Source: Desulfobacula toluolica Tol2 (lineage in GTDB: Bacteria; Desulfobacterota; Desulfobacteria; Desulfobacterales; Desulfobacteraceae). From it: a stretch of 64,000 nt of DNA. The notes under the pieces were generated by a model. The model was not told the origin of the DNA and ran no database searches. It worked only from the letters and a program-made list of their open reading frames with translations. Each line of letters opens with the position of its first letter. The first letter of the stretch is position 1. The stretch spans positions 3,495,501 to 3,559,500 of the forward strand of contig NC_018645.1 of assembly GCF_000307105.1 (NCBI RefSeq), in the 5' to 3' direction. This document shows positions 32,697 to 41,500 of the stretch, piece by piece. Made by a program: the position numbers and the translations under genes.

Positions 32697-32794
32697 GGAA
32701 GTGCGCGGCTCACTGGTGGGGCCCTCGGACTTCAAATCCGATGTGGGGCGCTAGAACCGTCCCGGGTGGGTTCGATTCCCATGCACTTCCGCCA
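32697..32794 (+). tRNA. selC: tRNA-Sec (anticodon TCA), with encoded CCA
   Basis: 98 nt. The acceptor stem has eight pairs (GGAAGTGC with GCACTTCC), the anticodon stem-loop is TCGGA-CTTCAAA-TCCGA with TCA at 32732-32734, there is a long variable arm, and the T loop is GGTTCGATTCC. The 8-bp acceptor and long extra arm are diagnostic for bacterial selenocysteine tRNA. The CCA tail is encoded. Its last 26 nt are the attachment core for the following element, and integration leaves the tRNA intact. Confidence 0.95.
32769..32794 (+). repeat. attL core (3' end of selC)
   Basis: 26 bp identical to 40975-41000. Similarity continues imperfectly past the core for about 120 bp (see 32795-32915). Confidence 0.9.
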
Positions 32795-32915
32795 TTTCTT
32801 TTTTAAATTCTCCAAAATTTCAAAGTGTTAGACTACAGTCCTTTTGTATCCCCCCCCTTAAAACACCTACAGGACACCTACAAGTTATTTTGCCCGATAT
32901 TACAGGGTATACAAG
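32795..32915 (+). repeat. left extended repeat with putative integrase arm sites
   Basis: Imperfect copy of 41001-41120. Contains two ACACCTACA boxes at 32863-32871 and 32874-32882, 11 bp apart (one helical turn). The same box is at 40921-40929 and inverted at 40864-40872, near the right end. This pattern fits arm-type binding sites of a tyrosine recombinase. Nothing else is seen up to the gene at 33020. Confidence 0.55.
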
Positions 32916-33019: not shown

Positions 33020-33274
33020 ATGGGCAAAGCCAAACGATTAAAAAGTTTAAGAAAACAAAAAGAATCAAAGCAAAACCGAATGACGCAAGAACAGGCAGAA
33101 AAAATGCTATACGGACATGAGTTGGTACCATTGACAGATCCCTTGATTAAAAAACTTGTTCAAGAACAGGGGATGCCCGAAAAAGACTTAAAGGATTTAC
33201 AAGCACAAGGGGCAAAATATTCCCCTGAACGAAATTCATTTTTCTTCCCCCCGGAAATGGAATGGTATGATTGA
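33020..33274 (+). CDS. small basic hypothetical protein (84 residues), element cargo
   Basis: Not recognised. The first 20 residues are strongly basic (MGKAKRLKSLRKQKESKQ), followed by an acidic/hydrophobic remainder ending FFFPPEMEWYD. A basic N-terminal tail of this sort is seen in nucleic-acid-binding proteins, but that is a guess. GGAG lies before the ATG. It is followed 74 nt later by a zinc-ribbon protein on the same strand, so both probably share a transcript. Confidence 0.55.
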   Translation: MGKAKRLKSLRKQKESKQNRMTQEQAEKMLYGHELVPLTDPLIKKLVQEQGMPEKDLKDLQAQGAKYSPERNSFFFPPEMEWYD

Positions 33275-33348
33275 ATTTTAAATGGCGTGGGAGTGTGCAA
33301 GCTCCCACACCAAACTTAACCACCTTAACGACACTAAGGAGGAAAAGC

Positions 33349-33612
33349 ATGGACAATATAATATCAAAATTTGATTTTGAAAAGAAACTGTTTACCTGTG
33401 TGTGCGGGGATACCCGTCCTTTTGATGAAACAATTATTATTAAATGCCCTTGTTGCAACGAGTATATTTTTTCATGTGATAATTGCCAAAAAAATTATAA
33501 GGTGCCCCCTGAAATTTTACCGTTTGCAAAATCGCAATCCACAATGGATGCAGAAGATGAAATTTTAATCATTGAACCTTATGTTCCCCTACCCGCTTCC
33601 AAGGTTGCTTGA
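33349..33612 (+). CDS. small zinc-ribbon-like protein (87 residues), element cargo
   Basis: Start at 33349 is set by AAGGAGGAAAAGC directly upstream; the frame is open earlier but without a site. Three cysteine groups (CVCGDTRPF near 17, CPCC near 33, CDNC near 43) suggest a zinc ribbon or double knuckle. The acidic C-terminal half has no motif. Function unknown. A strong 18-bp inverted repeat lies 24 nt past the stop. Confidence 0.6.
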   Translation: MDNIISKFDFEKKLFTCVCGDTRPFDETIIIKCPCCNEYIFSCDNCQKNYKVPPEILPFAKSQSTMDAEDEILIIEPYVPLPASKVA

Positions 33613-33636
33613 TCAAAACATTTTAATTATCCAAAC

Positions 33637-33693
33637 GGCAACGGACATTTCCAAAACCCGAGGCTTTTGCCCGGCTTGGAAATGTCCGTTGCC
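33637..33693. terminator. 18-bp perfect inverted repeat between convergent element genes
   Basis: Arms 33637-33654 and 33676-33693 are exact complements with a 21-nt loop. It lies between the zinc-ribbon gene and the convergent minus-strand gene, where a bidirectional terminator would be expected, but no T-run follows on either strand. A second imperfect hairpin with one bulged base follows at 33722-33755. Confidence 0.5.
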
Positions 33694-33765
33694 ATTGTTA
33701 ACTATTCAGGTTCCAACAACCGGATAAGATCGTGGTTCGTTCTTCACACGATCTATCCTTATTCG

Positions 33766-34485
33766 TTAGCCATTTTTATTATCCTCTATCAAATCGATTT
33801 GTTTGAGAACTAAACGGCCTAAAGCTGTAAGATCTCTATACGCAACCGAAGGTTTTCCAGTGAATTTATCAAATTCCGGAATTTTTGTGTTTCTATCAAG
33901 TCGGTAATGTGATCGAATTAAACCAATTCGCTCTAAATGTTCCCTATAGCTATTCTGCAATGCAGCTTTCTTAATTATTTTTTCATCTGTTGTCCCTAAA
34001 GTGACAGGTATCGGATCGAGAACATTCCTATGTTTATTGCGGTATTCTTCGTCACCACCCATTGTTGGAAAAAGATAGAACCTTAACCAAATGATTTCCT
34101 GATCGTTTAGCTCCTGAAGTAGCTTCAACACATACTTGGATTCAGAATATGTAATCAAATTTTCATCAAGGCCGTTCCTGACTACCGACGCTATTTGAGC
34201 TCTTCTCTCATCAGTAAGAGCTCTTGATGCCTGTACAAATCCTTCCTCAAATAAATCAATACATTCATCATTCCTTAGAAGATTTCTGAGTTTTTCAGTT
34301 GACAAATCTGATAGCTTATTATCCAGTTCCACGACGTATTTTGAAAGCCTATCAATTCGTTGATTTGGTATTAAATTGCCCACAAGTTCTGAAAGTAGAG
34401 GACCAGCAAATGGAACAGCACCAAGAATTGATTTTGCCGTAGATGAAAGAAAATCCGCTTTATTTTGATCAAGTTCATTTCCCAT
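33766..34485 (-). CDS. hypothetical protein with hydrophobic glycine-rich N-terminus, element cargo
   Basis: About 239 residues from the ATG at 34485 (AAGGG 11 nt upstream; GTG/ATG starts 9-12 nt earlier also possible). Residues about 15-45 contain GAVPFAGPLLSELVGNLIP, a hydrophobic glycine/proline segment that could insert in a membrane. A helical middle (DLFEEGFVQASRALTDERRAQ) and a C-terminal region of winged-helix look (HLERIGLIRSHYRLD, then LTALGRLVLKQIDLI) follow. I do not recognise a named family. Location on an element next to a DUF4145 gene suggests a possible defence or stress role, which is only inference. Confidence 0.6.
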   Translation of the reverse strand: MGNELDQNKADFLSSTAKSILGAVPFAGPLLSELVGNLIPNQRIDRLSKYVVELDNKLSDLSTEKLRNLLRNDECIDLFEEGFVQASRALTDERRAQIASVVRNGLDENLITYSESKYVLKLLQELNDQEIIWLRFYLFPTMGGDEEYRNKHRNVLDPIPVTLGTTDEKIIKKAALQNSYREHLERIGLIRSHYRLDRNTKIPEFDKFTGKPSVAYRDLTALGRLVLKQIDLIEDNKNG

Positions 34486-34559
34486 TGCGATCATCACCCT
34501 TTTTTCACAGTTAATGTTTTAGCTCACAGACTTGCCCTTGTGCATCGTCTGGGCTAATA

Positions 34560-34585
34560 GACACCCGGCGATTTTTCCGGGTGTC
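34560..34585 (-). terminator. 9-bp GC hairpin downstream of DUF4145 gene
   Basis: GACACCCGG (34560-34568) and CCGGGTGTC (34577-34585) pair with an 8-nt loop in the 118-nt gap between the two minus-strand cargo genes. No T-run follows on the minus strand, so it may attenuate rather than stop transcription. Confidence 0.45.
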
Positions 34586-34603
34586 CTTGTTAAGCCCGAG
34601 ATG

Positions 34604-35272
34604 TTATGTTACTTTTTTACTTTGTTCCTTTTTTAGTTGACTAGCCTTGTAATCAAGCTCATACAAAAAATTCATTAAATCTTCACTTACTTCAATGGCA
34701 AGCTTTAGATTTCGCCGATTTGGTGGGTTCAATTCATGGAGAGCTTCATTTCCCATGAATCGAAAGCTATGTAAATTTTCAACTATATTTTTCGGCAAAA
34801 TCGATGTCAATGCATCAATTTTTTTTAGCAAATTTGATCCCGAGATTTTTTTATCGACACAAATACCTTCGATCAAAGCTCTCAATCCACCTGCGCAAAG
34901 AATAAGCAATTTATTATTATATGCATCAATGGATTCTTTATACAGGCCATTAAGTTTTTTGGGAAGATTACGAAAACTTTTTAGCGGAATATGTTGTTGT
35001 TTTCGTGAAGGATGGTATGTGTAGTCATATATTTGATTGTCATATTGGTCAACCATGTTATCCATTGTGTAGCAATACTCCAAAGTTCCCTGATCACATC
35101 CAGCACAAATCCAAAACCTATAAATAATATCTTCCCAATAAAGAAGGCGACCGTCATCTTCTTCATAGAATCTCGAAGAATGCTCACCTTTTAAAATATG
35201 GTTTGTCTCATTCTCACAACTATTGCAATATATTCTTTTTTTATCAGGTAGATTTCTTGATTTTTCTGACAT
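34604..35272 (-). CDS. DUF4145 protein with N-terminal zinc ribbon, element cargo
   Basis: 222 residues from the ATG at 35272, chosen because AGAGGAAAAAC precedes it. The N-terminus has CNSC and CAGC pairs (about 15 and 55) that likely bind zinc. The C-terminal DUF4145 domain has LLILCAGGLRALIEGICVDK (near 115) and FMGNEALHELNPP (near 170). DUF4145 domains are found alone or attached to restriction and other defence enzymes, where they are thought to be helper or sensor domains. It is upstream of, and in the same direction as, the unknown gene at 33766. Confidence 0.75.
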   Translation of the reverse strand: MSEKSRNLPDKKRIYCNSCENETNHILKGEHSSRFYEEDDGRLLYWEDIIYRFWICAGCDQGTLEYCYTMDNMVDQYDNQIYDYTYHPSRKQQHIPLKSFRNLPKKLNGLYKESIDAYNNKLLILCAGGLRALIEGICVDKKISGSNLLKKIDALTSILPKNIVENLHSFRFMGNEALHELNPPNRRNLKLAIEVSEDLMNFLYELDYKASQLKKEQSKKVT

Positions 35273-35499
35273 GTTTTTCCTCTGATTAAACATAACAACT
35301 ATGTTCTACAGTTTTTTTCTGTCTACTATTCAAATTAACAAACAAGATAACACTTCTGCTGGTATCAAAAATTTTTGAAAATCACAATGATGTCTTTCAA
35401 AAACAGTGAATTTCTAACAGTATAACATTCAATTAGTTATGATAAACTGAATTCCGGGATCTATAGCATATGGAAATTAACTTTACATAAAAAATCAAA

Positions 35500-35916
35500 T
35501 TAAAAATTATCAAACAAATCAAGTTGGATCTCTTGCCTTGAATTGTTTTCATTATCCCGAAATTCAAAATCAAATATGCTGAGTTTTCCTCTCATTGGAT
35601 AAAAATCAATCATGTTGGGTAATTGCAGGACAAACCCGTATTTACCATGAAACCAGGGAGACTCATGCTTTTTTACACAATCAATCATATTGACATGACC
35701 GATTATTCCACCTCTTTCATTTTTTGATTTTTCGATGACGGCTTGATATTCGGGCCGAAGTTCTAATATCAATTTTGCTCCCTGAAGGTCAAACCCCTTG
35801 CTTGCATGAATGTATAAAAGCCCCCGATAGTAAGTGAACCAATTCCGATTTTCAATATCTTTGATTCCTTCCACAATTAGGGATGCCCACGGCTGCTTAA
35901 CACTTATCGCTTTCAT
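35500..35916 (-). CDS. ASCH-domain protein, element cargo
   Basis: 138 residues. The N-terminus (MKAISVKQPWASLIVEGIKD) and RNWFTYYRGLLYIHASKGF are the conserved RNA/ligand-binding groove of ASCH domains, near relatives of PUA and YTH folds. ASCH proteins bind RNA or act as small nucleoside amidohydrolases, and are common on mobile elements. AAGGAG is 6 nt before the ATG. Directly upstream is a palindrome (35941-35957) and a 13-codon open frame in the same reading frame that ends with TGA inside that palindrome. About 200 bp without a gene separates it from the DUF4145 gene. Confidence 0.85.
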   Translation of the reverse strand: MKAISVKQPWASLIVEGIKDIENRNWFTYYRGLLYIHASKGFDLQGAKLILELRPEYQAVIEKSKNERGGIIGHVNMIDCVKKHESPWFHGKYGFVLQLPNMIDFYPMRGKLSIFDFEFRDNENNSRQEIQLDLFDNF

Positions 35917-37011
35917 AATATCTCCTTTATCTGTTTGTCCAGGTTTTCAAAACCTGGCCCCCGGAGGGATAAAAAAACACTTTCCCATTGAATTTTTCCT
36001 CCTGGGGTCGCGTTTTTTAAAAGGTCAAAAGCGGAGGGAAGTCAAGAAAACAAAACGGAGGGTCCGGAAAATATTTTTCATATGACGCTTTTCTTTTTTT
36101 AAATATTTTTTGTTGAACCGATAATTTTTGATTGGAATAAGGAAAAATATTTTTTGGAAACCGTTTTTTTTCTTTACTTCCTGTAGTGTTGACCTATACG
36201 CGATCGACCCCCAGGAGGATAAATCAAATCTTGCAATAATGTCCAGCTCTGCTTTACCTGTTTGTCCAGCTTTTCAAAAGCTGGCCCTCGGAGAGCCCCC
36301 GGAGGGACCCCCGGTAGGGCCGTCGGAGACTCTTCCAGGAGCGCAGCGAATGAATAACTCATCTCTGATGAGTACCCGTTATACAATTTTTAATTTTTTG
36401 TCTATTTTTAGGGGACCAAAATAAACTCTATAATCTTTATTAACAGGCTTTTCAATGTTTTAAAATCAAGGTTGAGTGCACCTATATTTTTTTAAGGTTG
36501 TTGCAGATCCGGGGAGGACCGGAGCGCACGGACGCGCTACTGCACGGCACGGCGCACCGGACCGGACCCGGATCTGATTTACGCCAGGAGGAAAAATAAA
36601 ATTCTCTTGGAGAGCCCCCGGAATATACGTGCTTTTTTTAACTTGATTTATATAGAACAACTGTCACCTTTTCCTAAAGGTATATGAATGCAGCCTTTTG
36701 CGAATTTTGAAATTCAAATCTTTCCGTTGCATGTTTTTGTGCAAGTTGATTATTGCTGTTCATTTTGAGTGTTAAATTATAGAATATTTTATTTGTATTA
36801 AGATTAAAAATGATGTTAGTTAAAAACAGAACAACAAAAAGCTATTTGATAAAATTAAAAACCAGTTAAATTTTGATTTGTCAATAAAATAGCCTTTGCA
36901 CACCCTCAAGGGGAGAATGACAAAAGGAAATTTGACTTTTTTTTATTGCGGTGATTGATTCTTGGCTCTATTGCTCATAAAATTTGTAATTTATTTCTGA
37001 TTTGTTAATTT
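35917..37011. other. 1.1-kb non-coding tract with GC-rich structured repeats; candidate origin or regulatory region
   Basis: No convincing gene. Two 17-20 nt palindromes sit in near-identical contexts: CCAGGTTTTCAAAACCTGG (about 35939-35957) and CCAGCTTTTCAAAAGCTGG (about 36266-36284), each after TGTTTGT and before GGCCC(C/T)CGGAG. A CCAGGAGGA motif recurs near 35998 (inverted), 36211 and 36584, and AGAGCCCCCGGA at 36293 and 36611. At 36504-36574 a 9-bp stem (AGATCCGGG with CCCGGATCT) encloses an inner AGCGC-GCGCT hairpin. The surrounding bases are AT-rich, so these GC islands stand out. A double- or single-strand origin for the Rep is a reasonable guess. Confidence 0.5.
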
Positions 37012-37821
37012 ATGAAAAGTTCTAATATCCTAAAAACTATTAAAATTATTTTTTTAATTTCCTTCATTGGCCTTTTCTTGATTTATTCCTATCTGATATT
37101 TACCGGTAAAATGTTCGACTTAAAAATAGTAAAAGAGCTATTTGATAAACATACCATTGCCATTACGAACAATATCCCATTTTTGTATAAACGACCGGAA
37201 ACAGCTATCAAATATCAACCGATAAAAATAAAGCCGTTGATTATCAATAAAAAACCAGCAAAAAGAAAAAACGAAAAGCTAATATATTCATGGGTAGATG
37301 AAGATGGAATAAAACATTTTTCAGATTTCCCTCCATCAAACCCAAATATAGATTTTGATTCCCAAGTTGCAATTGTTTCCCCAAAAAATAAAAATTATCT
37401 GAAAGAAAGGGTATTTCGATCAATAGCAAATGAAATTGAGACGCAAGCTCTAATACAAGGAAATTCAGTTTTGGTTCCAGTAAAATTGGGATATAGAGGA
37501 AAAGAAATATCGACCTGGTTGATATTCGACACTGGTGCAACAACAACTTCAATTCATAACGACATTGCTGATAAAATTGGCATTATCCCTTTTAGCCTTT
37601 CAAAATCAACTACTGCTGATGGTAGTGTAATAGACAAAAAGAATGCCCTTCTTGATTATATTGTGGTTGGTCCATATAGAATAGTAAATTTTCGAATATC
37701 AATAATTGATTATAAGGGCAATTCCGGCATTTCAAAGGGATTACTTGGAATGAATTTTTTGAAAAATGTTAATTATAAAATCAATTTCAAAAGAAAAACG
37801 ATAAAATGGGCTAAAAAATAA
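37012..37821 (+). CDS. membrane-anchored retropepsin-like aspartic protease with DUF4124, element cargo
   Basis: 269 residues. One N-terminal membrane helix (about 10-30), a DUF4124-like segment (YSWVDEDGIKHFSDFPP, about 92-108), then a clan AA single-lobe aspartic protease: WLIFDTGATTTSIHND (catalytic Asp173) and GLLGMNFLKN near the end. One-lobe enzymes of this sort act as homodimers and would face the periplasm here. Similar TIGR02281-type proteins occur in proteobacterial chromosomes. On this element it may be cargo, since it lies on the int-rep side and has no partner gene. No strong ribosome site is seen. Confidence 0.8.
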   Translation: MKSSNILKTIKIIFLISFIGLFLIYSYLIFTGKMFDLKIVKELFDKHTIAITNNIPFLYKRPETAIKYQPIKIKPLIINKKPAKRKNEKLIYSWVDEDGIKHFSDFPPSNPNIDFDSQVAIVSPKNKNYLKERVFRSIANEIETQALIQGNSVLVPVKLGYRGKEISTWLIFDTGATTTSIHNDIADKIGIIPFSLSKSTTADGSVIDKKNALLDYIVVGPYRIVNFRISIIDYKGNSGISKGLLGMNFLKNVNYKINFKRKTIKWAKK

Positions 37822-37904
37822 TTTTTTATAAAAATTTACATCTATCCCCTCTCATAGGTAGAAATTCCAAACAAAAGATTACCCATTGTTAACTTTTTGT
37901 TGAC

Positions 37905-37926
37905 TTTTTACTTTAAAAGTGAAAAA
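37905..37926. promoter_or_regulatory. palindromic operator candidate before the HTH-rep-int operon
   Basis: Centre ACTTTAAAAGT with flanking T5 and A5 runs, overlapping a weak promoter (TTTACT, 16 bp, TATCAT). It lies 45 bp before the HTH gene, the usual place for autorepression. Confidence 0.4.
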
Positions 37927-37970
37927 GGTATCATAATGATAACTTTTTAGATTGGATCTCAAGTATAAAA

Positions 37971-38468
37971 ATGCGAGAAGTTATAAATTTTATCGACATC
38001 CCAGAAGAATACAAACAAGCAATAGGCGCGCCTGACCCTGGGACTAGATTATACAGACAGTTCGGTCATGATAAAGAAAAAGAACTGTGGTGGGATGCAA
38101 TTCTTTCAATAACAAAAGAACGAAATGTTGTTTCGCCGGGCGGAGCTTCTAGTTTTGTCGGAGTTTCAAGAACAGCGGTTCACAAAAGGATAAAAGAAGG
38201 GAGATTAACAGCTTTTGCTTTCCATACAGTTGAAGAAAACAAATTGTTGAAAAAGATCAATATTTCGTATGAACAATTGGCCGAATCAGGATGGCCTCAA
38301 ATACTTTATATCCCCTGGAGTGAACTAAAGGATTGGCGAAATTATATCAATAGTAGAAAACAAAAAGCTTCATTACGCAAAAAAAATATGGATGCTGATC
38401 ATACCGATGATAAATTTCTGAAAGGCAATTTAGCATGGAAGAACAAAAAAAGGAAAAATGATGGTTGA
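37971..38468 (+). CDS. HTH DNA-binding protein (excisionase/regulator), element module
   Basis: 165 residues. A helix-turn-helix of MerR/excisionase look, GGASSFVGVSRTAVHKRIKEG, spans about 56-77, after an N-terminal helical region and before ILYIPWSELKDWRNYINSRKQK and a strongly basic tail. It is the first gene of the HTH-rep-int set, the position occupied by excisionase/regulator genes in integrative elements. It could regulate its own operon, direct excision, or both. Its stop lies 5 nt from the end of the antisense RNA that covers the rep leader. Confidence 0.7.
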   Translation: MREVINFIDIPEEYKQAIGAPDPGTRLYRQFGHDKEKELWWDAILSITKERNVVSPGGASSFVGVSRTAVHKRIKEGRLTAFAFHTVEENKLLKKINISYEQLAESGWPQILYIPWSELKDWRNYINSRKQKASLRKKNMDADHTDDKFLKGNLAWKNKKRKNDG

Positions 38469-38472
38469 CAGA

Positions 38473-38570
38473 TAAAAATGCTCAAGGAGGTGCTGCAACA
38501 CCTTCCTTGAGCAAAAATGTTCCAGAGAAAACAATGAAAGGTATCAGGCAATCATGTAACCCAGAACACT
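38473..38570 (-). ncRNA. antisense (countertranscript) RNA to the rep leader
   Basis: A minus-strand promoter TTGACA (38599-38604), 16-bp spacer, TATACT (38577-38582) would start an RNA near 38570. It ends at a strong hairpin (38479-38492 with 38499-38513, one bulged base, 6-nt loop) followed on the minus strand by TTTTT (38474-38478). The result is a ~98-nt RNA fully complementary to the leader between the HTH gene and rep. This is the standard architecture of copy-control countertranscripts in rolling-circle and theta plasmids. The hairpin is followed by A-rich sequence on the plus strand, so it terminates only the antisense direction. Confidence 0.75.
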
Positions 38571-38576
38571 GTTTAT

Positions 38577-38604
38577 AGTATATCTTTAAGCAGTTATTTG
38601 TCAA
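38577..38604 (-). promoter_or_regulatory. sigma-70 type promoter of the antisense RNA
   Basis: TTGACA and TATACT with a 16-bp spacer on the minus strand, as good as the selC promoter in the same window, which has the same two hexamers and the same spacer length. Confidence 0.75.
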
Positions 38605-38606
38605 CC

Positions 38607-38660
38607 AACCTCTTTGGAACATTGAATACATTAATCAGTATTTAATTTTCCAAGGAGGTT
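38607..38660 (+). promoter_or_regulatory. hairpin sequestering the rep Shine-Dalgarno
   Basis: In the sense RNA, 38607-38619 pairs with 38648-38660 over 13 bp (one G-U), burying AAGGAGG of the rep gene, whose ATG is at 38666. An upstream segment, 38518-38527 (TGTTCCAGAG), can instead pair with 38610-38621 (CTCTTTGGAACA) with a 2-nt bulge, which would free the site. The antisense RNA covers exactly that upstream segment. Confidence 0.7.
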
Positions 38661-38665
38661 TTTTT

Positions 38666-39523
38666 ATGGACAAACAAAAGTCCTCATTTAAAAAATGCCC
38701 CAATTCAATTGGTGCATTTTCTGGAATAACCATCGACGGTAAAAAAATAGTTGCCGGTACTCTCCCGTGTAATTCATGGCATTGCCCCAGCTGTCAAAAA
38801 CGACTGAAAAAAAAATTATACAGACGAATTCTGCAAGGTGCCATTGGTGATGATCTCACCTCCCCTTATGCATTCAAATTTTTAACACTCACTTTCGGTG
38901 GAAAGGAAGCCAGGGCTCAGGCATCCACCCAACTTAAAGAACATAATGAAAATTTGATACTTGAGAGAAAAGAACCATTAACATTGAAAGAATACATTTA
39001 CGATATAATGGTTCACAATTTCCATAAACTTATCCGAGCGTTGAAAAAAAAATATGGAAATTTTCATTATTTTCGTGTGGCTGAATTACACAAAGACGGC
39101 ATTCCGCATTTTCATATACTATTTGCAGGAAATGCCATCATCCCAAAAGGGATATTAGCATCCATTGAAAATTTGTGGAGATCAAAATATGGCATGGGCT
39201 TTGTAAGAATCAACTGTGTAAAATTTAGAGATAAAAAACACGCTATCCGATATATGCTCAAGTATATCACTAAAGATATCCAAAAAATTGGGAAATGGAA
39301 AAGAATCTTCTCTGCAAGTAGGGGTTCACTCGTAAAAATTTTTAAAAATGATTGGCTGGCCGTTAATGTTCATGTTGGACATGTTACGGATAAAGGGATT
39401 GAAGAAATGATTCTTGATGAGGTTCGGATACGAGAGTCAATCATTCCTGATCTTAGCCCCCTCAGTAAATACGCTATTGATGCAATGAGACAAATGTATA
39501 CCCGAATGATAGCATCTATATAA
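38666..39523 (+). CDS. rep: rolling-circle replication initiator (HUH, Y2-type Rep)
   Basis: 285 residues. N-terminal cysteines (CNSWHCPSC, 35-43) resemble the zinc-binding head of phage and plasmid Reps. Motif 1 is FLTLTF (72-77), the metal-binding HUH motif is HFHILFA (148-154), and motif 3 is YMLKYITK (196-203), giving two tyrosines, Y196 and Y200, in the YxxKY form of superfamily 1 (phiX174 gpA/IS91-like). It would nick one strand at an origin and start rolling-circle copying of the excised circle or assist transfer. A very strong Shine-Dalgarno (AAGGAGG) is held in a hairpin. It lies between the HTH protein and the integrase on the same strand. Confidence 0.88.
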   Translation: MDKQKSSFKKCPNSIGAFSGITIDGKKIVAGTLPCNSWHCPSCQKRLKKKLYRRILQGAIGDDLTSPYAFKFLTLTFGGKEARAQASTQLKEHNENLILERKEPLTLKEYIYDIMVHNFHKLIRALKKKYGNFHYFRVAELHKDGIPHFHILFAGNAIIPKGILASIENLWRSKYGMGFVRINCVKFRDKKHAIRYMLKYITKDIQKIGKWKRIFSASRGSLVKIFKNDWLAVNVHVGHVTDKGIEEMILDEVRIRESIIPDLSPLSKYAIDAMRQMYTRMIASI

Positions 39524-39604: not shown

Positions 39605-40879
39605 ATGAAAGGATCAATTTTTTTTATGCCGGATCGTGGGAGGTGGGCCGTTTCCTGGTATCACAAAGAACCTGGACAAAAAAAAGGCAAATACTATACT
39701 ATAACCCGGTATCAAGGCCAGTTCATGCCCTGCACCCATTATCAAATGAAAAGAGGGAAAGTTCGGCTTGATGAAAAAGGCCGGGCCATACCGGATAAAA
39801 GCAGGTGTCAGGGATATGCCATTGCAGGAAAACTCAGAGCTTTAATGCAAGGCAGATGGGAACAACATCAAAAAGGGATTTTGCAATTCCGGATGGATGA
39901 ATTTACCGGCAAGGGATGGACAGACGTTTTAGAATTTTATGAAACCTGGATGAAAGAAAAGGTTGAACAGGAATGCAAAATAGCTACGATCAAGGGCTAT
40001 TGGTCTTATTACCATAACTGGATATCACCCTACTTCAACAAACATCCAATACGATTACATGAAATCAAATCCGATATGCTTTTGTCCCTTCTCAATTTTA
40101 TTAAGACAGGATTGAAAAAAAAGAACCCCAACGGAAACTATGGAAAAACTGCCCGGAATATCATGGGTGCATTTCGAACCTGTCTTGAATTTGCAGAAGA
40201 ATGTGATCGCATTCCAAAAATTCCAACTTTTCCGAAGAAAAAATCTTATAACCTGAAAAAGAAACCTATTGAATGGCTAACTGATGAAGAATACTGGAAG
40301 GTCATTGAAAAAATACCGAAAATAAACTGCCCCCCTTTTCTTTGGCTTTATTATCATTTTAGACGGCCTGGTGAAGCTTGTGTTCTGAAAAAATCAGATT
40401 ACGATATGGTCAATGATGCCTTTTGGGTTCAACGGGCATTGTCTGCCAGGGTTGAAACCAATTCGACCAAAACCGGTGAGGTCTTTTTGGTTCCCTGTGA
40501 TCCTGATTTTAAGAGTATCACCAAAAGGCTGATCAATGAGAATCCCAAAACCCCTTACCTTTTTGTGAATCCCCGGGCCAGAAAAAAAGGCAAGCGGTAT
40601 TCCCTGGAAAGTTTACGAAATATTTGGTATGCAGCCTGTGATAAAGCAGAAATTAAACGGATATGGGTTTACAAAGGAATGAAGCATACAAGCTGCACCA
40701 ATTATCTAAATAAGGGTGGTACTGTCGGAGATCTGGAAATGATAACCGGCCAGACAAAAGAATCCCTTAAAAAGTATGCAGAAATCACCTTGCAACGTAA
40801 AAGGCGGGCTATGTCAAAAGGACGTGAGAATATCCTGGATATCAGGGAATTACATCAAAAAAATGTAGGTGTATTGTAA
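39605..40879 (+). CDS. int: tyrosine recombinase (element integrase) with variant active site
   Basis: 424 residues from the ATG at 39605, chosen for GGAGAGGTGTGC upstream; a TTG 63 nt earlier also opens the frame. The N-terminal part looks like a DNA-binding head, then an SAM-like core-binding domain (about 105-195), then the catalytic domain. Active-site residues: Arg in RRPGE (254), KHTSCTNYL (360-368) where the usual second Arg is Lys, and TGQTKESLKKY where the usual His/Trp is Gln (383), with Tyr391 as nucleophile. It would catalyse integration into selC. The ACACCTACA box occurs inverted at its 3' end. Confidence 0.85.
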   Translation: MKGSIFFMPDRGRWAVSWYHKEPGQKKGKYYTITRYQGQFMPCTHYQMKRGKVRLDEKGRAIPDKSRCQGYAIAGKLRALMQGRWEQHQKGILQFRMDEFTGKGWTDVLEFYETWMKEKVEQECKIATIKGYWSYYHNWISPYFNKHPIRLHEIKSDMLLSLLNFIKTGLKKKNPNGNYGKTARNIMGAFRTCLEFAEECDRIPKIPTFPKKKSYNLKKKPIEWLTDEEYWKVIEKIPKINCPPFLWLYYHFRRPGEACVLKKSDYDMVNDAFWVQRALSARVETNSTKTGEVFLVPCDPDFKSITKRLINENPKTPYLFVNPRARKKGKRYSLESLRNIWYAACDKAEIKRIWVYKGMKHTSCTNYLNKGGTVGDLEMITGQTKESLKKYAEITLQRKRRAMSKGRENILDIRELHQKNVGVL

Positions 40880-40974: not shown

Positions 40975-41000
40975 GGTTCGATTCCCATGCACTTCCGCCA
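40975..41000 (+). repeat. attR core
   Basis: 26 bp identical to the 3' end of selC (32769-32794). No tRNA body precedes it, so it is the displaced copy of the tRNA tail. Confidence 0.9.
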
Positions 41001-41500
41001 ATTCTTTTTTAAATTCCCCAAAATTTCAAAGTGTTAAACTACTGCCCTTTTGTGTGTATCTCTCTGTAAAACATCTACAGAACATCCACAAGCTATTTTG
41101 TCCAATATTACATACATACAATACTCATAAAAATACAATTCTATTTTAATCAGTTACAGGATATTAACGACTATTATCCAGGATAATCTCATATTTTCTC
41201 ACTAATTGTATTGATTTGATTTTATTATTGCAATTTTACTGTCATTTCTTAAATATCGAATTTAATATTTAAGAAATGACAAGGATTTGTGAGTTATATC
41301 TATTGACAGCCATAATTTTGAAATATCATTGATATCAATAAAATCAAGAATCAGTCAGATATCAAAATCCGCGTGGCAATTATTTAAAACCTTTGTAAAA
41401 CAAAGAAACCCGGCTCATAAGACCAGATTTTCTCTGTTTGAAATAAAACCACAAAACGAATCAACAGCGTACTATTCTTCAAAAAAATGGTTATTAAACA
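41001..41500. other. right flank: decayed second copy of the element's left end, then a 17-bp hairpin
   Basis: 41001-41120 matches 32795-32915 imperfectly, including two degenerate ACACCTACA boxes (41071-41079 and 41082-41090) with the same 11-bp spacing. Further on, 41240-41256 and 41265-41281 form a 17-bp perfect hairpin with an 8-nt loop. No gene is seen; an open frame at 41329-41523 runs into khpA and looks spurious. Confidence 0.6.

Follow-up and report, generated by a model that had tools for sequence, protein, structure and literature searches.

A probable antisense-RNA-driven switch in the rep leader of an element integrated at selC in Desulfobacula toluolica Tol2

Antisense attenuation of rep is already known, as far as the cited accounts go, from pT181, pIP501 and the Gram-negative repABC plasmids. 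In the repC attenuator of pT181 from Staphylococcus, stem-loop IV is predicted to hold the ribosome-binding site (RBS) just before the start codon and is terminator-like (Novick 1989, as reported in PMC5703833). According to the same account, the antisense RNA acts mainly by termination, a pre-emptor competes for the 5' arm of that stem-loop, and pSK41 is the translational counterpart of pT181. In the repABC plasmids of alphaproteobacteria, the antisense RNA (ctRNA or RepE) is described as making the repC leader form an intrinsic terminator (PMC3155836, PMC6090056). RnaG of Shigella is presented as another Gram-negative antisense attenuator (PMC5394118), and pT181 attenuators are reported to function in E. 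coli (PMC4878617). We dropped the idea of a first antisense attenuation of rep in a Gram-negative, because the repABC plasmids are described as doing so already.

The window is the whole stretch of DNA analysed here, 64,000 nucleotides of the D. toluolica Tol2 chromosome. It carries an 8.2-kb element that is integrated at selC, as the preliminary description had stated. The element lies between two 79-nt att repeats that are 94% identical, one at the 3' end of tRNA-Sec (32769..32847, plus strand; selC gene 32697-32794) and one at the far end (40975..41053, plus strand), so that the tRNA 3' end is duplicated. Three genes on the plus strand are central to it, and all of them are open. The rep gene (38666..39523) encodes a HUH-type rolling-circle initiator of 285 aa, which matches Pfam REP_ORF2-G2P (E 3.9e-12, 46.8 bits vs a cut-off of 27.8) and the PHROG rolling circle initiation family (E 3.6e-11). 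A tyrosine integrase gene follows (39605..40879; Pfam Phage_integrase, E 3.8e-9). Upstream of rep, a gene for a 165-aa protein with an HTH (37971..38468) has a sub-threshold match to Pfam AbiEi_4 (E 0.026); its position, as in the copG/copR plasmids, and its small size make it a possible Cop-like repressor. A near-perfect palindrome ahead of this gene (37922..37948, plus strand; 13-nt arms, 92% complementary) is a possible operator. Given the integrase, the att repeats and the HUH-type rep, it is reasonable to suppose that the element excises and replicates as a plasmid. A fold search with the second of two poor structure models (mean pLDDT 33 and 59) gave no match at E <= 0.001.

The cargo of the element (33020-36000 and 37012-37821) includes a DUF4145 protein with weak similarity to PD-T7-4, an ASCH-domain protein and a retropepsin-like protease with PADLOC PDC-M08B matches (best E 2.5e-11). 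By eye, the ASCH protein and a small protein (33020-33274) look common to a related element in genome G017.

The leader between the HTH gene and rep contains a minus-strand promoter, TTGACA (38604-38599) and TATACT (38582-38577) with a 16-bp spacer, exactly where the preliminary description placed it (38577..38604). It matches the consensus at 11 of 12 positions and ranks top of the seven promoter-like readings in 37800-39200, a number that is unremarkable against the 4.9 expected. From this promoter and the minus-strand fold, an antisense RNA of about 97 nt with two stem-loops is predicted (38474..38570, minus strand), its 5' end at 38570 being placed from the position of the -10 hexamer. The 5' hairpin of the fold carries the complement of segment A, and the 3' hairpin is the terminator. 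The rho-independent terminator claimed earlier is likewise present (38474..38513, minus strand), with a hairpin at 38479-38513 and a run of A5 on the plus strand at 38474-38478 that reads U5 on the minus strand; a simple terminator scan did not have this hairpin on its list. Read on the sense RNA, it is hairpin I, which bears the loop (GGUG-loop-CACC). At the gathering threshold, Rfam found two tRNAs only in the whole window, and a permissive scan of 38400-38700 returned 10 sub-threshold matches, none to an antisense plasmid-control family.

The sense RNA carries three further segments on the plus strand. Segment A (38516..38528), the pre-emptor or anti-terminator, pairs with 38611-38623 in a 13-bp helix. 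Segment B (38607..38623) contains CCTCTTTGG, which is unchanged in five aligned leaders. Segment C (38648..38660) includes the rep Shine-Dalgarno sequence (SD), AAGGAGG (38652-38658), and pairs with 38607-38619, again over 13 bp, so that the B:C helix covers the SD. The limits of C had been given exactly, and those of A (38518-38527) and B (38610-38621) slightly short, the helices being longer. Since B is needed by both, A:B and B:C are mutually exclusive, as had been proposed. Above the B:C helix stands an upper stem-loop (38621..38646; helix 38621-38629 with 38638-38646). Segment C directly abuts a U7 tract (38659..38665) that lies between the SD and the AUG. The B:C hairpin with its U tract (38607-38665; -26.6 kcal/mol) adjoins the rep start and holds the RBS. 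Because the hairpin abuts U7 just before the AUG, it looks like an intrinsic terminator with its tail besides hiding the SD. The earlier proposal that the switch blocks rep is thus sustained in its A/B/C logic and in the burial of the SD, and revised where it named a translation block alone, since B:C plus U7 has the anatomy of a terminator.

We compared the strength of this arrangement with chance. When the sequence ahead of the SD end was dinucleotide-shuffled and the SD end itself left intact, no shuffle out of 2000 equalled the window switch in strength, and the result was the same (0/2000) for the leaders G017, G024a and G013 described below. A loose switch (>=9/>=9/overlap>=6) appeared in 57 of 2000 shuffles of the window leader. 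Across both strands of the window, 4 of 247 SD-plus-start registers passed a strong test (>=12/>=12/overlap>=8), all overlapping at the rep site. The loose threshold was passed by 25 of the 247, 21 of them elsewhere in the window; weak A/B/C patterns are therefore common, and the strong form alone is special. The window leader fold has a z of -7.63, and 0 of 200 shuffles were equally stable.

Relatives of the window rep are rare. Homologues were found in 3 of 86 genomes of the family, its own included, and in 4 of 389 genomes of the order, the fourth being very weak; a Rep profile search of the phylum matched 2 of 395 genomes, namely its own and one weak match. A covariance model of the B:C region, built from three leaders and run on the 389 order genomes, added leaders in G026 and G013, plus three weak terminators. 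A five-sequence model gave 15 matches in the 86 family genomes: its five sources, a leader here called G024b (E 1.2e-4) and nine weak matches. A search of the class (389 genomes) found no further module. Altogether, five genomes yield six homologous leaders, of which five are complete. The G024b leader is counted solely by homology because its strength, taken by itself, is no better than that of shuffles (240 of 2000 as strong).

Other candidates were set aside. The weak model matches in G286, G109 and G385 are not modules and read as ordinary terminators, and L062-L066, L070 and L072 were terminator-like or chance, with no A and no antisense promoter by eye. A weak model match in G006 (L061) sits at the edge of its contig, L068 and L069 are reverse-strand matches over sites already known, and L071 coincides with L049. 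Pattern scanning of the viral_contigs set picked out 24 and 5 stretches; inspection showed the leader in none of them. Searches with Rep turned up no relative among viral contigs or phages. In the plasmid collection, just two Thermotoga mini-plasmids weakly matched the window Rep, and the protein family of G024b matched two Synechococcus records. The Thermotoga plasmid pRKU1 (L038, 846 bp) showed 35% identity over 36% of the window Rep query. The only match in a search with leader DNA was at E 0.5.

The preliminary description had staked the switch on the conservation of the pairing and of the promoter across homologous elements, and both are conserved. A minus-strand TTGACA with a -10-like hexamer stands ahead of B in five of the six leaders. 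Within columns 4-15, which were picked after viewing the table, 70 of 72 cells of the A:B helix are paired, and over all 19 columns scanned 89 of 114 are; the two unpaired cells of columns 4-15 are in G024b. The A:B register was set by a script that chooses the best-pairing A, and these counts hence lean towards pairing; it was used because MAFFT, when aligning the entire leader, put A in the wrong place. Of the twelve columns, seven are variable. Column 9 (TA, TG, CG) is the one firm two-sided change, and column 6 has a two-sided change in G024b only, beside its unpaired cells. The B:C helix pairs in 93.3% of 90 cells in five leaders (G024b not included), with all slid registers lower, and its upper helix pairs in 92% of cells (five leaders). 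Four B:C pairs changed on both sides, as many as in 10 of 500 shuffles, and further pair types showed no excess over shuffles (100/500; both counts in five leaders without G024b); five or six sequences are few for such covariation counts, and the structure counted came from the same alignment.

The antisense hairpin is preserved in another manner. Its GGTG-loop-CACC form occurs in five of the six leaders, with five different loops in the five complete ones, among which leader identity is 50-73%. A constant stem with differing loops is the usual picture for an antisense recognition loop. By eye, a YUNR loop motif was inconsistent across the leader copies. A U tract follows the B:C stem in five of the six leaders (T7, T7, T5AT4, T6 and T6), and the G013 leader has the switch without it. 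The U tract of the antisense terminator is poor in G024a. In G017, the antisense hairpin (L008 6427-6470) has T5 on the sense strand also; with T5 on both strands, it may be a two-way terminator that could end the sense RNA too.

The G026 leader keeps A, B and C; within the stretch examined it contains neither TTGACA nor a GGTG hairpin, and it looks decayed. This appearance, the drift of the window att repeats to 94% identity and the rarity of relatives would suit an element that is a dead remnant with a fossil switch. We regard such a history as improbable, given that rep, int and the HTH gene are all open in the window and that the leader pairing is kept against relatives with a leader identity of 50-68%.

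Folding calculations addressed the claim that antisense binding would shift the leader from A:B to B:C. In a transcript ending before C, the probability of A:B was 0.90 in the window, 0.94 in G017, 0.92 in G024a, 0.995 in G024b and 0.977 in G013; it was just 0.005 in G026. When the part covered by the antisense RNA was barred from pairing, B:C formed with a probability of 0.97, 0.92, 0.93, 0.99 and 0.91 in the window, G017, G024a, G024b and G013, respectively. At equilibrium, the full-length window leader folds almost entirely into B:C, antisense or no antisense (P 0.97; B:C better than A:B by 8.5 kcal/mol). There, the SD was unpaired with a probability of 0.001 without antisense, 0.35 with A:B enforced and 0.001 with A covered. 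G017 at equilibrium resembles the window (P(B:C) 0.88), and G024a, G024b and G013 favour A:B. The equilibrium fold of the window speaks against a simple two-state picture. Because it is nearly all B:C with the SD closed even without antisense, the ON state of the window leader must be kinetic. A kinetic ON state is usual for attenuators.

The same equilibrium fold would also be expected if B:C were a constitutive leader terminator or SD hairpin that keeps rep low, with A:B as a weak relief and the antisense RNA absent or irrelevant. We consider this very unlikely, because TTGACA and a -10-like hexamer are kept in five of six leaders despite the divergence of the leaders, and because the antisense hairpin combines a preserved stem with a different loop in every one of five leaders.

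We consider it likely that the rep leader contains an antisense-RNA-driven riboregulatory switch of the kind found in the pT181 attenuator. The sense transcript probably begins ahead of the HTH gene. While RNA polymerase is moving out of the leader, A would pair with B, C would stay free, and rep would be transcribed and translated. If the element is excised and replicated, the antisense RNA would accumulate and cover A before B is made, and B would then pair with C. Transcription should stop at the B:C hairpin, which ends in U7 just before the AUG, and any read-through RNA would have its SD buried in B:C. Rep, and hence the copy number, would fall. Of the preliminary description, the antisense gene, the A/B/C logic and the integrated element find support here, as does copy control as the probable purpose.

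By analogy with the described attenuators, transcription termination is at least as likely an output as a translation block, and SD masking may act as a second layer. The switch might instead be purely translational as in pSK41, with the antisense-induced B:C hiding the SD and the U tract incidental. Segment C contains the whole SD, which is closed when A is covered, and G013, L081 and L082 (the latter two described below) have the switch without a U tract, so that a translational form probably exists in these elements. For the window leader we hold this to be rather unlikely, since a U tract, needless for SD masking, stands behind the stem in five of the six homologous leaders.

L081 and L082 are distant homologues of the protein encoded after the G024b leader. 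L081 lies in the window's own genome but outside the window (G000:C1:3986621-3987496; 26% identity), and L082 lies in G054 (29% identity). Their leaders are unrelated in sequence to the window leader and have the same order of parts: a hairpin, A (GAGAGTTC), a minus-strand TTGACA-17-TACACT / TAAGAT, B and an SD hairpin. Covering the antisense part lowered the probability of an unpaired SD from 0.54 to 0.02 in L081 and from 0.57 to 0.002 in L082, and an equally large drop was seen in 2 of 400 and 1 of 400 shuffles, respectively. These leaders appear to be of the translational type.

Homologues of the G024b protein occur in several copies per genome, with five matches in G025. Other homologues, in G025, G026 and G023 (L077, L078, L079, L084-L088 and L090), have a different, short leader with one hairpin (AAAGGCC-GGGAG-loop-CTCCC-GACCTTT). 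Seven different loops were present among the nine short leaders examined, like an antisense recognition loop under diversifying pressure.

The homologous leaders precede replication genes, known or putative, of three unrelated kinds, among which BLAST at E <= 1e-3 detected no similarity. A HUH-type Rep follows the leader in the window, G017 and G024a. A second protein family follows it in G024b and G026; all seven aligned members match a PHROG endonuclease family, one matches a replication initiation family, and five of the seven have sub-threshold matches to Rep_trans (best E 0.036). The G024b protein itself had no Pfam match. These matches make the family a putative Rep_trans-like initiator. 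In G013, the leader is followed by two small ORFs and then by a protein whose PHROG matches are to replication initiation and to a DnaD-like loader.

The comparison of G024a with G013 shows where the genes part. Up to the final base of the SD, 9 nt short of the rep start, the two share DNA homology of 76%, which takes in the leader and the small genes upstream of it. Homology (84%) begins again 294 nt beyond the end of rep, within the small gene that precedes int. Between the upstream proteins, identity is 79%. The pattern looks like that of an exchange of the rep gene at the SD boundary. The small upstream genes look RHH-like by eye; in Pfam, those of G024b have two matches below threshold, and those of G017, G024a and G013 have none. 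Integrase-like genes lie 3' of rep in the window, G017, G024a and G024b, that of G017 being sub-threshold in Pfam and 23% identical to the window integrase. Att repeats lie 5.4, 6.9 and 4.9 kb apart at tRNA-His (G017), tRNA-Leu (G024a) and tRNA-Glu (G024b), respectively. G026 showed no att repeat, and the contig of G013 spans just 4.4 kb. The window element is thus one of a group in its family with a module common across unrelated genes, mostly at tRNA genes. G024 has two complete modules with different loops in one genome.

Given similar switches before unrelated genes in related bacteria, the module looks like a swappable part for copy-number control. We lean, with some reserve, towards a joint reading in which the small upstream gene, the antisense RNA and the A/B/C switch together form a self-contained cassette of RNA control that moves as one piece between integrated elements of the family. 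It would precede unrelated genes (a HUH rolling-circle Rep, a putative Rep_trans-like initiator and a DnaD-like replication operon) and exchange them at the SD boundary. It would also diversify its loop so that several elements coexist per genome, and shift its output between transcription termination and SD masking by gain or loss of the U tract. If this holds, the 'integrated' elements lead a regulated plasmid life. A copy-number switch would be senseless for purely chromosomal DNA, and its presence predicts a free replicating phase of the elements; compatibility groups set by the loop are also predicted. The six leaders form a natural series in which presence or absence of the U tract may convert a transcriptional into a translational switch.

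New here is a single control module ahead of replication genes, known or putative, that are of three unrelated kinds. The logic of antisense attenuation of rep also seems to extend to Desulfobacteraceae, to elements integrated in the chromosome and to a part that is portable. No such switch in Desulfobacteraceae or on tRNA-integrated elements was among the matches listed in the literature searches, which covered titles and the beginnings of abstracts, with most subscription papers outside.

Among the plasmid analogies drawn in the preliminary description, pT181 and pIP501 fit and IncB does not; pSK41 and repABC also fit. IncB is a poor analogue because its control is described as working through a pseudoknot (PMC5415839, PMC8383071). 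Two elements discussed in the cited papers share the wider setting. The REx-C / REx-R regions of Pseudomonas plasmids likewise include a module, putatively for antisense control, that has passed between unrelated rep genes, but their control region is ColE2-like, the plasmids are free, and no A/B/C terminator switch is described in the part of PMC5304414 consulted. SGI1 is, like the window element, a Gram-negative integrated island with plasmid-like replication (PMC7826253), but it is described as relying on leader peptide coupling and helper activation, and 'antisense' has 0 occurrences in the main text of that paper.

In the available accounts, pIP501 (CopR and RNAIII) and pMV158 (CopG and RNAII) also place a small upstream gene and an antisense RNA before rep (PMC5703833, PMC4981023). 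pIP501 shares attenuation as well, whereas RNAII of pMV158 is said to block translation directly. The window HTH gene matches this dual control by position and small size, its role as a repressor being putative. The repABC plasmids are similar in being Gram-negative and in having an antisense-induced intrinsic terminator in the leader. They differ, as described, in a ctRNA of ~50 nt between repB and repC, a partition operon and large size; neither repA nor repB was seen beside the window rep, the upstream gene is HTH-like with 165 aa, and rep is of HUH type. The pSK41 rep leader is reported to have an antisense-induced stem-loop that hides the RBS and a two-hairpin antisense RNA, and is the best fit for G013, L081 and L082. 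Its initiator is RepA_N, and the window leader differs from it in the U tract. The reported pT181 system is like the window in an antisense RNA to the leader (87 nt in pT181), a pre-emptor whose partner is the 5' arm of the last hairpin, an RBS-holding terminator-like hairpin beside the start codon and an initiator of rolling-circle type. The initiators belong to different families, Rep_trans (PF02486) in pT181 and HUH REP_ORF2-G2P in the window. The host phylum also differs, and the window element has a small upstream gene, is chromosomally integrated and has no Rfam match.
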